Source: Candidatus Firestoneibacteriota bacterium (GTDB taxonomy: Bacteria > Oederibacteriota > D2-FULL-39-29 > CAIOVX01). Taken from it: DNA of 64,000 nucleotides. The notes below the pieces were generated by a model, which had not been told where the DNA came from, did not search any database, and saw only the letters and a program-made list of their open reading frames with translations. Made by a program: the position numbers and the translations under genes. This document shows, in pieces, positions 5,130-63,842 of this stretch. The stretch's first letter is position 1. Every line of letters starts with the position of its first letter. The DNA lies in contig CAIOVX010000022.1 of assembly GCA_903861835.1 (NCBI GenBank), positions 1 to 64,000 of the forward strand. Reading direction: 5' to 3'.

Positions 5130-5306
5130 TTCATAACGTTCATAAGCCGCACTTCGTGCGTCTTGTTCTGTAGGGTAAGATATATTTCATGCCAGACTAC
5201 GTCTGGCATAGCAGAATAACGTTTGTAACGTTCATAACGTAAAGATTATTGAGCATGGTTTTTCATGGTTTGCATTACGTTATAAACGTTAAGAACGTTA
5301 TAAACG
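5130..5306. repeat. Composite repeat: hairpin module plus AACG-type palindrome
   Basis: The 204-bp gap between the 4-Cys gene and the ferredoxin holds three elements. First, the CATAAGCCGCACTTCGTGCG...TAACG module (5141-5220) with the perfect hairpin ATGCCAGAC-TAC-GTCTGGCAT (5189-5209). Second, 9-bp TTNNTAACG units on the left (5222-5239) and their reverse complements on the right (5275-5306). Third, between them a 52-bp core (5231-5282) containing GCATGG-TTTTT-CATGG, which recurs at 23598-23649 and 30547-30598. The element sits inside an apparent operon. Confidence 0.8.
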
Positions 5307-11303: not shown

Positions 11304-11385
11304 GATTACGCGGATTAGAAAGAAAGATTACACGGATTAGATCTTGATTTAATCCGCGCAATCGGTTTTCGTAATCTGCGTAATC
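11304..11385. repeat. GATTAC-family nested inverted repeats
   Basis: GATTACGCGGATTAG (11304-11318) and GATTACACGGATTAG on the left mirror AATCCGCGCAATC and CGTAATCTGCGTAATC on the right. They fill the 116-bp gap between the NuoEF fusion and the flavoprotein. Confidence 0.75.
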
Positions 11386-11416
11386 AAACGAAGTTGTTCA
11401 AAAGAGGTTTGAGGTA

Positions 11417-13036
11417 ATGGAGAAAGAGATTTCAATAGAAATAGACAAGAAGAAATTGAGCGTCGAAGAAGGCGCTACAATTCTTTCCGCCGCCGAAGCC
11501 GCCGGTATAAAAATACCGACACTCTGCTATTACAAAGCCGTAGGGGCCATTACCTCCTGTTTTGTCTGTGTGGTGGAAGTTGAAGGCAAGAAGCATCTTG
11601 TCCCCGCCTGCACGGCAAAGGCTGAACCGGACATGGTCATTACCACAAACAGCAGGAAGGTGACTGACGCCCGAAAGGCCGCGCTGGAGCTTTTGCTCTC
11701 GGATCATAACGGTGATTGCGAAGGCCCCTGCCGCCTCGGCTGTCCTGCAAATATTGAATCACCTAAATTCATAAACGAAATACTGCACAGAAAATACGGC
11801 GAAGCGATCAAGACCATTAAGAAGAGCGTTGCTCTTCCTGCGGTGCTTGGGCGCATCTGCCCCGAGATTTGTGAGAAGACCTGCCGGCGCGCTAAAGTTG
11901 ACCAGCCGGTGGCGATATGTCATCTCAGGCGTTTTGTCGCCGACAGAGATCTTTCAAGCAAGGTGCCTTATCACCCGGAAATAAAAGAAAACACCGGGAA
12001 AAAGGCGGCGGTTATCGGTTCAGGACCTGCCGGGCTTTCCTGCGCGTACTATCTGAGGCAGGAGGGAATTGAGGTTACGGTATTTGACGCCAGGGAACAG
12101 CCCGGAGGAGCCCTAAGGTATGCGATTTCTAAAGAGCGCCTTCCGGTCTCCGTGCTTGACTCGGAAATAAGGATAATCAGGGATATTGGGGTTAAATTCG
12201 AACACGGAAAGCGGCTCGGTAAAGAGCTGCGTGTTGCAGAGCTTTTAAAGTCATACCAGGCGGTCTTCATCGGCACGGGCTCGAAAGAGGAGGACCTTGA
12301 AGCGCTAAAGACAGAAGGGATAGAAACCGGGAAGAACGGCGTGGTTATCGGAAAAGAAACAATGATGACCTCGGTCTTTGGGGTTTTTGCAGGCGGGGAT
12401 TGCGTTTCAAAGACCGGACTTGCCGTGCGCTCAGTTGCTTCAGGCAGGATCGCAGCGAAGATTATGGTCGGTTTTCTTCTACAAGGAACTCCCGGAAAGG
12501 ATAAGAAATTATTTTCAGTCAGGATGGGGCCCCTCAGCGAGGCGGAACTCTCGGAAATGATGATAGGTTTTAGCTCCGAGAAGCGCGTCCTAAAAAACTT
12601 GGTGGACGGCAAGCAAATAAAGGAAAATCCGGGCGAGGCAAGGAAAAACTTTACCGACGACGAGGCTTTAAAGGAAGCCGCAAGGTGCATGCGCTGCGAC
12701 TGCAGGAAGCTTCGCGGCTGCCGCCTGAAGAAAATCTCTGAAGATTACGGCGCGGACCGGCTAAAGTACCAGGGGGAAAGAAGGAAGTTCGCGCAGGATG
12801 CCTCTCACCCGCTCGTGGTGTACCAGCCGGGAAAGTGCATCGCCTGCGGCATCTGCGTCAAAATCACCGAACAGCATAAGGACGAGCTCGGCCTGACCTT
12901 TATCGGGAGGGGATTTACGATTAAGATGGGCGCCCCGCTCGGAGCAAATATGAGCGAAGCGATGAAATTGGTTGCGAAAGAGGTTGCCGTAAGATGCCCG
13001 ACGGCGGCGGTGACGATAAAAAAAGATGGTTTGTAA
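11417..13036 (+). CDS. 2Fe-2S / GltD-like flavoprotein lacking the NAD(P)H-binding domain
   Basis: A 539-residue protein. N-terminal plant-type 2Fe-2S domain with C37, C48, C51 and C65. Then the GltD-type Fe-S region ([10 protein letters not shown] near 101; [12 protein letters not shown] near 148) and an FAD-binding fold ([15 protein letters not shown] at 199; FAGGDCV at 324). In ordinary GltD/NfnB-type proteins a second Rossmann domain (GGGNVAxD) lies between those FAD motifs; here only about 35 residues separate VFIGTGS (283) from FAGGD, so the NAD(P)H domain is absent. A degenerate C-terminal site (CIACGIC ... RCPTA) may hold another cluster. It probably takes electrons from the NuoEF fusion. 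Confidence 0.85.
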
Positions 13037-13126
13037 CGTTCTTAACGTTTATAACGTAAACCGCCAAATCCTGTCCATGGTTTGTTTTACGTTACAAACG
13101 TTATAAACCTTATAAACGTTATAAAC
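13034..13126. repeat. AACG-type palindromic repeat
   Basis: TTNNTAACG units on the left (CGTTCTTAACG, TTTATAACG) and CGTTATAAA-type reverse complements on the right surround a diverged core (TCCATGGTTTGTTTTACGTT). It is the most diverged of four such palindromes in the window and separates the flavoprotein from the glycosyltransferase. Confidence 0.7.
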
Positions 13127-22196: not shown

Positions 22197-22222
22197 AAGG
22201 GCTGAGGGGGAAATGCTAAAAT

Positions 22223-22260
22223 AAATTGAAATTCGAAGCAAGAAATTTGAAATTCGAAAC
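22223..22260. repeat. AATTCGAA-family repeat
   Basis: Two degenerate copies of GAAATTCGAAGCAAGAAATT-like words between the permease and the following propeller lipoprotein. The family recurs at 23503-23536, 27170-27200 and 36112-36197. Confidence 0.6.
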
Positions 22261-23481: not shown

Positions 23482-23502
23482 CCGTTAAAGCAGGGCTAAA
23501 CA

Positions 23503-23536
23503 AAAATTCTAAATTCGAAGCACGAAATTCGAAACA
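23503..23536. repeat. AATTCGAA-family repeat
   Basis: AAATTCTAAATTCGAAGCAC and CGAAATTCGAAAC words between convergent propeller genes. Confidence 0.6.
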
Positions 23537-24812: not shown

Positions 24813-24817
24813 AAATG

Positions 24818-24871
24818 TTTGTAACGTTCGTAACGTTCTTAACGTTTATAACGTTTGTAACGTTTGTAACG
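24818..24871 (+). repeat. Six perfect-register 9-bp TTNNTAACG repeats
   Basis: TTTGTAACG, TTCGTAACG, TTCTTAACG, TTTATAACG, TTTGTAACG, TTTGTAACG run head to tail with no gap. They lie in the divergent control region between the propeller gene (minus) and msrB (plus). The clearest tandem array of this family in the window. Confidence 0.88.
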
Positions 24872-27158: not shown

Positions 27159-27224
27159 GAAATTGGAATAAGCTCGAAATTCGAAATCTGAAATTCTAAA
27201 AATATTCAGTAAACATCATTAACG

Positions 27225-27278: not shown

Positions 27279-27334
27279 TTTTGTATTTGCTTTTACCTTA
27301 TAAACTTTACAAACCTTATAAACCTTATAAACTC

Positions 27335-27652: not shown

Positions 27653-27672
27653 TTACTCCTCCTTTGAAGAAT

Positions 27673-27827
27673 GATTACGCAGATTTCAAAATGCAATTAC
27701 ACGGATTAAAGAGATTGTTTCTTTTACTGCTTCCATTATAACAGTTCTAAGCAGTGCTGTGATGATAATGGTCATAGAGTGTAAGGGGCATTAATCTGCG
27801 TAATCGTCATTCGTAATTCGCGTAATC
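27673..27827. repeat. GATTAC-family repeats flanking divergent promoters
   Basis: GATTACGCAGATT and AATTACACGGATTAA lie on the left, TTAATCTGCGTAATC and CGTAATTCGCGTAATC on the right, inverted relative to each other. The space between them holds the YHS lipoprotein promoter. Confidence 0.7.
27735..27763 (-). promoter_or_regulatory. Extended -10 promoter of the YHS lipoprotein gene
   Basis: On the minus strand: ATCACA, 17-bp spacer ending in TGT, TATAAT. The TG one base before the -10 box is the extended -10 element. The start codon is 82 bp downstream. Confidence 0.65.
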
Positions 27828-27860
27828 ACTAAAAGCCAGAGGCCCTGGTGCCTAATAGTC

Positions 27861-30407: not shown

Positions 30408-30527
30408 GTTTATCTTTCAGATGCCGGAGAAAACCTCACCCTTTAGGGTGAGGATGAATCCGGCATGAATAATATTAACACACCTATAAAGAGAAACTCC
30501 GGCCTTCAGGCCGCAGAGTTTCATAAG
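30408..30527 (+). repeat. 120-bp compound-hairpin repeat, copy 1
   Basis: Matches 53948-54067 at 119 of 120 positions (T at 30487, A at 54007). It holds an outer pair ATGCCGG/CCGGCAT enclosing CCTCACCC-TTTA-GGGTGAGG, a 40-bp linker, then AAACTCCGGCCT...AGGCCGCAGAGTTT, a second hairpin. No open reading frame is convincing. Confidence 0.92.
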
Positions 30528-30540
30528 GTTTATAAAGTTT

Positions 30541-30736
30541 GTAACGTTCATAACGTAAACATTATGGAGCAGGGTTTTTCATGGTTTGCCTTACGTTGCA
30601 AACGTTATTTTGCTATGCCGGACGGAGTGCGGCTTAAGAACGTTAGGAACGTTATTCTGTTATGCCAGACGGAGTCTGGCATGTAAGATATCCTTCCTTA
30701 CAGAACAAGACGCACGAAGTGCGCTTATAAACGACC
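30541..30736. repeat. Composite AACG palindrome and inverted hairpin module
   Basis: The 52-bp AACG core (30547-30598) differs from the 5231 copy at 5 positions. On its right, at 30662-30728, lies the CATAAGCCGCACTTCG-type module in reverse orientation, with ATGCCAGAC-GGA-GTCTGGCAT (30662-30682). A related word ATGCCGGACGGAGTGCGG sits at 30615. The whole 399-bp gap 30400-30798 is repeat. Confidence 0.8.
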
Positions 30737-31307: not shown

Positions 31308-31389
31308 GATTACGCAGATTAGATAAACAGATTACACGGATTAGGTCTTGATTTAATCTGTGTAATCGCACTTCCTAATCTGCGTAATC
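31308..31389. repeat. GATTAC-family nested palindrome
   Basis: GATTACGCAGATTAG (31308-31322) and CTAATCTGCGTAATC (31375-31389) form a perfect 15-bp pair. Inside, GATTACACGGATTAG (31330-31344) faces TTTAATCTGTGTAATC (31352-31367). It lies 41 bp before the Rrf2 gene and so could influence its expression. Confidence 0.85.
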
Positions 31390-31429
31390 ACTAAACGCAA
31401 TCTATCAGGAATTTTGAAAAGGAGTTGAA

Positions 31430-37380: not shown

Positions 37381-37455
37381 TTACACGGACCATGGCCCTG
37401 AACCCGAAAGGATTTGAGTGGTTCAGGGTTAGAACGGCAGATTACGCAGATTAAT
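37378..37455. repeat. GATTAC words around a CCCTGAACC hairpin
   Basis: GATTACACGGA on the left and GATTACGCAGATTAA on the right (same orientation here) flank a hairpin CCCTGAACC (37396-37404) / GGTTCAGGG (37420-37428). It occupies the 90-bp gap before the M20 peptidase gene. Confidence 0.65.
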
Positions 37456-53899: not shown

Positions 53900-53947
53900 A
53901 AAGTTTGTAAGGCTTGTAAAGTCCAAAAGGTTCTTAACGTTCGTAAC

Positions 53948-54067
53948 GTTTATCTTTCAGATGCCGGAGAAAACCTCACCCTTTAGGGTGAGGATGAATC
54001 CGGCATGAATAATATTAACACACCTAAAAAGAGAAACTCCGGCCTTCAGGCCGCAGAGTTTCATAAG
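53948..54067 (+). repeat. 120-bp compound-hairpin repeat, copy 2
   Basis: Same 120 bp as 30408-30527 with one difference. AACG words (TTCTTAACG, TTCGTAACG) touch it on the left at 53931-53948. The CATAAGCC module (54062 on) follows directly on the right, overlapping by its first six bases. Confidence 0.92.
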
Positions 54068-54141
54068 CCGCACTTCGTGCGTCTTGTTCTGTAAGGAAGG
54101 ATATTTTCATGCCAGACTACGTCTGGCATAACAGAATAACG
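54062..54141 (+). repeat. CATAAGCC...TAACG hairpin module
   Basis: Contains a GCAC-TTC-GTGC hairpin and the 21-bp palindrome ATGCCAGAC-TAC-GTCTGGCAT (54109-54129). Nearly the same as 5141-5220; an inverted copy lies at 30659-30728; a copy lacking the palindrome lies at 57113-57168; a copy with changed but still paired stem lies at 63338-63420. Confidence 0.85.
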
Positions 54142-55044: not shown

Positions 55045-55247
55045 ACCTTCCTCCCCCTTTTATATGGGGAGGACCGAGGAGAGGGTAAATAAAAGACTGC
55101 GGCCTTAAAGCCGGAGTCTTTTGTTTCGGTTGGTAAGAAAATACTTCATGCCGAATTCTTCCCCGCCATAAATGGCGGGGTATTCGTCGGTATAACGAAA
55201 TAAAACTGTACCCCCATCCTAACCTTCCCCCTGTAAAAGGGGGAAGG
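55045..55247 (+). other. Structured leader upstream of pckG
   Basis: The region holds four stem-loops: CTCCCCC/GGGGAG near 55049; AAAAGACT (55091-55098) / AGTCTTTT (55115-55122), terminator-like with a T-run; CCCCGCCAT-AA-ATGGCGGGG (55161-55180) inside ATGCCG/CGGTAT arms; and CCTTCCCCCT (55223-55232) / AGGGGGAAGG (55238-55247). All resemble repeat families elsewhere in the window. They lie between the pckG promoter and its ribosome binding site. No gene is seen. Confidence 0.6.
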
Positions 55248-57052: not shown

Positions 57053-57180
57053 AAAAGTTTGTAAGGTTTGTAAAGTTATAAGGTTTATAAGGTTTATAAG
57101 GTAGCGATGTCGGAAGCCGCACTTCGTGCGTCTTGTTCTGCAAGGTAAGATATACATAACAGCATAACGTTCCTAACGTA
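57053..57180. repeat. AAGGTTTATAA array plus shortened hairpin module
   Basis: Direct words of TTTATAAGG/TTTGTAAGG type (57057-57101) precede a copy of the CATAAGCC module (57113-57168) from which the 21-bp palindrome is missing; a CATAACAGCATAACG join remains. AACG words follow. It is the 189-bp gap between pckG and tgt. Confidence 0.75.
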
Positions 57181-63337: not shown

Positions 63338-63420
63338 CATAAGCCCTCAAGCAGAGCTTTCGGGCTTGTTTTGTTAAGAAGATACATTCACGACAAACTA
63401 CGTTTGTCGTAGCAAAATAA
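63338..63420 (+). repeat. CATAAGCC module with covarying stem
   Basis: Same scaffold as 5141-5220 and 54062-54141 (CATAAGCC, TTGTT, AAGA/GAT, hairpin, AGCAAAATAA). The palindrome is ACGACAAAC-TAC-GTTTGTCGT (63390-63410). Compared with ATGCCAGAC-TAC-GTCTGGCAT it has three changes on each arm, all paired, and the same TAC loop. The first hairpin is also replaced by a different one (AAGCCCTC...GGGCTT). Confidence 0.75.
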
Positions 63421-63479: not shown

Positions 63480-63842
63480 GTGATTAATGAGCAGGACATA
63501 TTAAGGAGACGTGCTAAATATTTTAGAACCAATATGTCTGTATCAGAGGCATTAATGTGGAATTTGTTAAGAAACGGAAATATCCTTGGAGCAAAGTTTA
63601 GGAGACAAGTAATCAAAGGGCCCTACATACTAGATTTCTATTGTCCTGAGCTGAAACTGGCAATCGAAGTGGATGGTAAAGAGCACAATAGCATCAATAG
63701 ATTTAGAAAAGATATCATTAGAGAAGAATACCTTGGAAAATGCAAAATCAGGGTAGTAAGAATAAAGTCGGAACAAGTACAAACCGGAATTAATAATGTG
63801 TTGAAATATCTAAGCAAAGAGATACTCTTGCGGCGAAGATAA
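63480..63842 (+). CDS. DUF559 endonuclease-like protein
   Basis: A 120-residue protein of the DUF559 group with the PD-(D/E)xK-type core (PYILDFYCPELKLAIEVDGK, about residues 52-71; HNSINRFRKDIIREEYLGKC; IRVVRIKSEQV). These proteins resemble Vsr/MTH-type nucleases and are often found near repair or restriction genes. GTG start at 63480; an ATG at 63470 ends after five codons. AT-richer than neighbours, so acquisition by transfer is possible. Radical substrate or target unknown. Confidence 0.82.
   Translation: MINEQDILRRRAKYFRTNMSVSEALMWNLLRNGNILGAKFRRQVIKGPYILDFYCPELKLAIEVDGKEHNSINRFRKDIIREEYLGKCKIRVVRIKSEQVQTGINNVLKYLSKEILLRRR

Follow-up and report, generated by a model that had tools for sequence, protein, structure and literature searches.

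Small mobile elements with compensatory base changes in three helices in Candidatus Firestonebacteria

Results

Module copies in the window

The window, a 64,000-nt stretch of Candidatus Firestonebacteria DNA analysed here as a whole, contains a short dispersed module at all five places where a first-pass annotation had located it. That annotation drew the limits at CATAA and TAACG, which include flanking DNA, as CAT before the element and AACG after it are target sequence. Without the shared target bases the element starts with AAG, ends with AAT and measures 73-78 nt, apart from one deleted copy that spans 52 nt (57114-57165, + strand). A full-length element of what we call family A lies at 5144-5217 (+, 74 nt, in GTTCAT^AACGTT) and scores 106.5 bits under the covariance model described below. 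Two further family A elements of 73 nt each lie at 54065-54137 (+) and at 30654-30726 (−), both matches to the same model, and a divergent family A element (A', 78 nt, 48.7 bits) occupies 63341-63418 (+) in TATCAT^AAGG. We also found an internally deleted family A remnant at 30607-30635 (−), in which the 5' end of hairpin 1 runs straight into the 3' half of hairpin 2, followed by CAAAAT. The recurrence of the module is not a matter of chance, since a 29-mer taken from it had not even one match in any of 100 shuffles. Immediately downstream of the 63341 element is an open reading frame for a DUF559/Vsr-like endonuclease (63480-63842).

Each element comprises two hairpins and a third helix that the first-pass annotation had missed: GTTCTG just 3' of hairpin 1, hereafter the guide, is complementary to the element's own 3' end, CAGAAT. 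In the A' element, hairpin 1 (63341-63367) is followed by the guide GTTTTG (63368-63373), a linker, hairpin 2 (ACGACAAAC-TAC-GTTTGTCGT) and the 3' end CAAAAT, and the DNA fold has a z-score of −5.1. Compared with the usual hairpin 2, ATGCCAGAC-TAC-GTCTGGCAT, there are three changes per arm, all of them compensated, and the loop is the same, exactly as had been noted from the sequence. A fourth compensated change lies in the guide helix (GTTCTG/CAGAAT to GTTTTG/CAAAAT), and hairpin 1 has been swapped outright for a different, longer hairpin, AAGCCC..GGGCTT. The matched base changes in the module are therefore real. The 57114 copy had been described as having lost exactly the palindrome; the loss is genuine but not exact, as comparison with the intact ortholog in genome G005 places the missing ~24 nt across hairpin 2, including the T-run before the stem, with the stem's last CAT retained. 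An RNA regulatory role was considered for the 63341 copy and set aside, the only match being terminator-like and on the opposite strand.

Related families

Families B, C and D and relatives in sister-family genomes have the same layout with quite different helix sequences. The family B element at 55091-55201 (+, 111 nt, in AAAT^AAAA) consists of hairpin 1 AAAAGAC..GTCTTTT, guide GTTTCG, linker GGTAAGAAAATA, a long hairpin 2 and the 3' end CGAAAT. A family C element, also of 111 nt, lies beside an A copy at 53952-54062 (−, in CTTAT^AAAC), with hairpin 1 GAAACTC..GAGTTTC, guide TCTTT, hairpin 2 and the 3' end AAAGAT; a second one, at 30412-30522 (−), is 98% identical to it. Guide and 3' end are TCTTT/AAAGA before the final T in family C, TCTG/CAGA in family D, TCTCGC/GCGAGA in the sister family and GACG/CGTC in G006, and in G009 the 3' end ACTCGCC accompanies, in eight copies, guides such as GGCGAGT or GGCGAAT. 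The TCTCGC, GACG and GGCGAGT guides belong to separate lineages of the sister family. Between families, the guide formed 37 of 39 possible pairs with its own 3' end, whereas permuted partners formed a mean of 20.1; this comparison is independent of the 95-copy alignment below, and in it the guide was defined after the complementarity had been seen, its place immediately 3' of hairpin 1 being fixed. Across all families the 3'-terminal T faces G, C or T and never A. Family C is young, because its 17 copies in this genome are 95-100% identical and its copies in congeners ~98%, compared with ~85% for genes in the same comparison.

Fold and covariation

We assessed pairing in 95 distinct copies, which are related to one another and whose alignment was fitted to the model. 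Standard pairs filled 97.3% of cells (93.2% when shuffled), two-sided changes were present at 14 of 20 pairs (3.9 when shuffled), and the covariation score was 0.151 (0.074 when shuffled); none of the three values was reached in any of 500 shuffles. Shifting the partner by 1-3 columns lowered pairing to 22-48%. Compensatory changes preserve all three helices, among the copies of a family as well as between families and lineages, the helix of guide and 3' end being predicted from complementarity. The unpaired linker GGWAAGATAT is conserved as well. The right flank is likewise complementary to the bases that close hairpin 1 at its 3' side (CTT in family A, GTTT in family C and TTTT in family B) and could pair with them.

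The first-pass annotation had read the covariation as a sign of selection or of a copying process that preserves pairing, and the covariance model, the genome search and the covariation count all support that reading; stems that differ with pairing lost, which would have spoken against it, are not what the alignment contains. Of the two, copying is favoured because the empty sites, nesting and mixed arrays described below reveal a mobile element, while selection on an expressed RNA may be a source of the covariation.

Distribution

With a covariance model built from 16 copies, this 2.18-Mb genome yielded 59 matches at or above 71 bits, and the four congeneric genomes yielded 74, 43, 49 and 39. 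Among genome contigs, a 19-mer core occurred only in three Candidatus Firestonebacteria metagenome assemblies, and it was found in no viral contig; a viral, plasmid or phage origin of the module was rejected, as the searches returned no match. Sister-family genomes have weaker model matches, in which pairing is kept with other sequences. One match, in G031, resembles a terminator hairpin and was left out of the counts. Distant relatives with the hairpin GAATCTCTCCGGGC..GCCCGGAGTTTC and ends of the form ..AAT^AA, in which guide pairing is ambiguous, occur in another family of the phylum (L271-L273, G013). Arrays of the 74-nt element probably break this assembly, since many contigs end within or close to them (C9, C21, C45, C77, C82, C84, C88 and C93 of G000).

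Empty sites, nesting and arrays

Orthologous sites without the element were found at several loci. At 54 kb, G003 and G004 have neither element, G005 has the A element only and this genome has both A and C, and the G005 sequence gives the family C pre-insertion site as CTTAT^AAAC. G003 is also empty at the 55-kb B site and at the 57-kb A site. Nesting is precise: a complete 60-nt family D element sits at CCAT^AAATGG inside the hairpin-2 loop of a B copy (L226, G000:C50, from 2674). Elsewhere, unlike units follow one another head to tail and meet precisely, and the arrays include an abutted element-end junction. Because different unit types abut in this exact manner, the arrays are not products of slippage only. 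Taken together, the empty orthologous sites, the precise nesting and the mixed arrays establish that the module is a mobile element. In arrays at three loci (L038, G000:C48; L149, G000:C84; L034, G000:C21), adjacent units have a common linker and hairpin 2 and differ in hairpin 1, which suggests module exchange between array units.

Target choice and orientation

Insertion occurs at T^AA, with no terminal inverted repeats, and more specifically at RT^AAC/G for family A and at AT^AAA for family C. The left flank of family A mostly ends in RT and the right flank starts with AA, followed by C in 59, G in 12 and A in 8 of 80 copies; most A copies sit in 9-mer arrays, so this preference is partly that of the array. 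Family C is found at AT^AAA in 24 of 25 cases, sites outside arrays included. The third right-flank base is A in 24 of 25 C copies versus 8 of 80 A copies (Fisher p = 8e-16). Target preference tracks how hairpin 1 terminates (with CTT in family A and GTTT in family C), but much of the signal for family A is supplied by the array.

Relative to GC skew, orientation is positive for 69 of 93 A copies and negative for 27 of 32 C copies; judged against the local coding strand, 69 of 93 A copies run with it and most C copies against it. This contrast fits opposite entry into the same arrays rather than one simple replication-strand bias. The arrays are tandem 9-mers of the form AANGTTYNT, with 20 two-unit matches in the window and none in shuffles, at 223-240, 5218-5306, 13035-13120, 24814-24867, 27300-27326, 30525-30551, 53927-53953 and 57054-57097. 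Often they form facing inverted arrays about a spacer (AACGTAA..TTACGTT), and most A elements are in phase within them. The window also holds another dispersed repeat family, made of GATTACGCRGATTA units and their inverse (2258-2451, 11304-11386, 27672-27836, 31308-31390 and 37426-37453), and short AAATTCGAA-rich repeats (22220-22252, 23502-23534 and 27168-27200).

Search for a mobiliser

The only Y1 protein encoded by this genome is a RAYT with GGGGACAGACACC palindromes on its flanks, and this transposase was rejected as the autonomous partner because it carries those palindromes instead. The RAYT genes that we inspected are bordered by other palindromes (GGGGACAG.., GTGACAGTCAC.. and GCATCAGCACTGC..), and the covariance model detected no convincing element copy beside RAYT or Y1 genes in the genomes of families f1 and f2. 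A second RAYT type, related to E. coli TnpA_REP (PDB 4er8), is present at L127 (G003:C71) and L139 (G004:C165), with a protein identical between these two species; having its own GCATCAGCACTGC palindromes, it was set aside as well. No RAYT type is common to all four element-rich congeneric genomes. In f1 and f2, all the genomes checked that bear the element also have one or more RAYT-type matches, and G010 has neither RAYT nor element. Elsewhere in the phylum, however, many genomes with a RAYT have no detectable element, and the two track each other only loosely.

A scan of all the DNA retrieved gave no convincing case of an autonomous copy with a gene between distant ends. There was no match to a reverse transcriptase (RVT_1) in G000 and G003-G008, and no IS110 DEDD transposase in G000 and G003-G005. 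The search for a Y2 (Helitron/IS91) transposase gave no match either, but it gave none in the control genomes.

Discussion

The window thus contains several families of a small mobile element that keep one architecture while their sequences diverge. On balance, we lean towards the reading that the element is a non-autonomous miniature moved in trans, as folded single-stranded DNA, by a reaction like that of IS200/IS605 or of REPINs. The guide helix would position the T^AA cut in donor and target alike, and the free 3' end would then be joined either to the element's own 5' end, giving a circle, or to a new target. A guide helix that sets the cut would account for the joint changes of guide and 3' end and for target choice that depends on the family.

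In outline, the elements work like the IS200/IS605 and REP/REPIN systems, but they fail defining features of both. As in the IS200/IS605 group (IS608 and ISDra2, with the Y1 transposase TnpA), there are no terminal inverted repeats and subterminal hairpins lie at both ends; insertion is 3' of a short target with no duplication beyond the shared bases, as seen in empty sites and flanks; and the element's own 3' end resembles the target, cut sites of the IS elements being set by pairing with an internal guide (PMC5934647). However, no tnpA or tnpB lies in or with the present element, and no Y1 gene is flanked by it in f1 and f2. In IS608, moreover, cut sites are chosen by pairing with guides 5' of the hairpins (PMC5934647), whereas here the guide is 3', nothing encoded by the element precedes hairpin 1 and the cut abuts that hairpin. 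The pairing is also longer here and made of antiparallel Watson-Crick pairs, apart from a single base at the cut that is not complementary. What it resembles is the engineered IS608 in which targeting was extended by adding complementary sequence on the 3' side of the hairpin (PMC5934647). Several observations weigh against the favoured reading: the RAYT, RVT_1 and IS110 candidates yielded no mobiliser; the A and C orientations relative to skew are opposite, where a simple lagging-strand bias predicts the same sign; and the placement of cut and guide around hairpin 1 departs from IS608. Conceivably, the elements form an undescribed class in which one guide pairs with both the own 3' end and the target, served by an enzyme outside both the known RAYTs and the IS200/IS605 transposases, although we put this forward only tentatively.

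Classical MITEs of the DDE type are likewise short, non-autonomous and directed to AT-rich targets, but the present elements have neither terminal inverted repeats nor any target duplication beyond at most AT/TAA, and this assignment was ruled out. Like the present elements, the GC clusters and double-hairpin elements of mitochondria are very small, palindromic and mobile; they merge, shuffle and line up in tandem, and no enzyme is known for them (PMC4478555). The present elements differ from them in their internal-guide/3'-end helix, their fixed T^AA limits and their location on a bacterial chromosome.

The elements might instead be REPIN-like passengers of the resident RAYT genes, whose products would then work in trans on hairpins that differ from the REPs of the RAYTs themselves. 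REPINs, too, are small intergenic sequences that occur in many copies, fold into hairpins as single-stranded DNA, cluster in tandem and are thought to be moved in trans by RAYTs (PMC3116915, PMC8266576), and the co-occurrence of RAYT-type matches with elements in f1 and f2, together with the absence of both from G010, is what such a dependence would produce. We nevertheless regard it as unlikely. Hairpins 1 and 2 are unrelated and do not form an inverted REP pair, there is no GT[AG]G foot, such as GTAG, and the junctions are T^AA, while REP/REPIN systems use GTAG and CT sites (PMC8266576, PMC3116915). The palindromes that border the RAYT genes, the want of one type shared by the four A-rich genomes and the many RAYT-bearing genomes with no detectable element all argue in the same direction.

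It is less probable still that the module is primarily a structured RNA with a regulatory or processing function, spread by some other process, whose covariation reflects selection on the RNA. Three covarying helices, a conserved unpaired linker and the excess of A copies on the local coding strand are consistent with such a function, but none of the Rfam models matched the module, C copies lie mostly on the opposite strand, empty sites are common and the orientation of A is largely set by the 9-mer arrays that it entered. G-U intermediates are also scarce (the most variable pair is GC in 43, AU in 41 and GU in 1), a pattern for which DNA pairing or templated correction accounts no less well than selection on RNA.

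Least probable, to the point that we give it little credence, is enzyme-free spread by replication slippage and template switching at hairpins that copies and corrects palindromes, a process under debate for mitochondrial GC clusters and double-hairpin elements, for although tandem arrays of near-identical units, the hairpin loss at 57114 and the compensated hairpin-2 changes are what slippage and quasi-palindrome correction would give, it fits poorly with exact T^AA limits in every family, family-specific targets, mixed arrays, nesting and the covariation of segments that lie 40-90 nt from each other and are entirely different from family to family. Template-switch correction could account for some of the hairpin-2 changes, but less well for the replacement of the guide/3'-end helix between families, whose arms are ~40-90 nt apart.

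If the elements do form an undescribed class in which one guide serves both the own 3' end and the target, they would represent natural, evolving and self-programmed target choice within ~74 nt. They look like a natural version of the targeting that was extended in the laboratory for IS608 (PMC5934647). The many families allow guide, 3' end and target to be compared, so that sequence comparison could reveal the rules by which single-stranded ends are recognised. The elements also bring to light, in a group of bacteria that has hardly been studied, a large and young set of small mobile elements that apparently still move.
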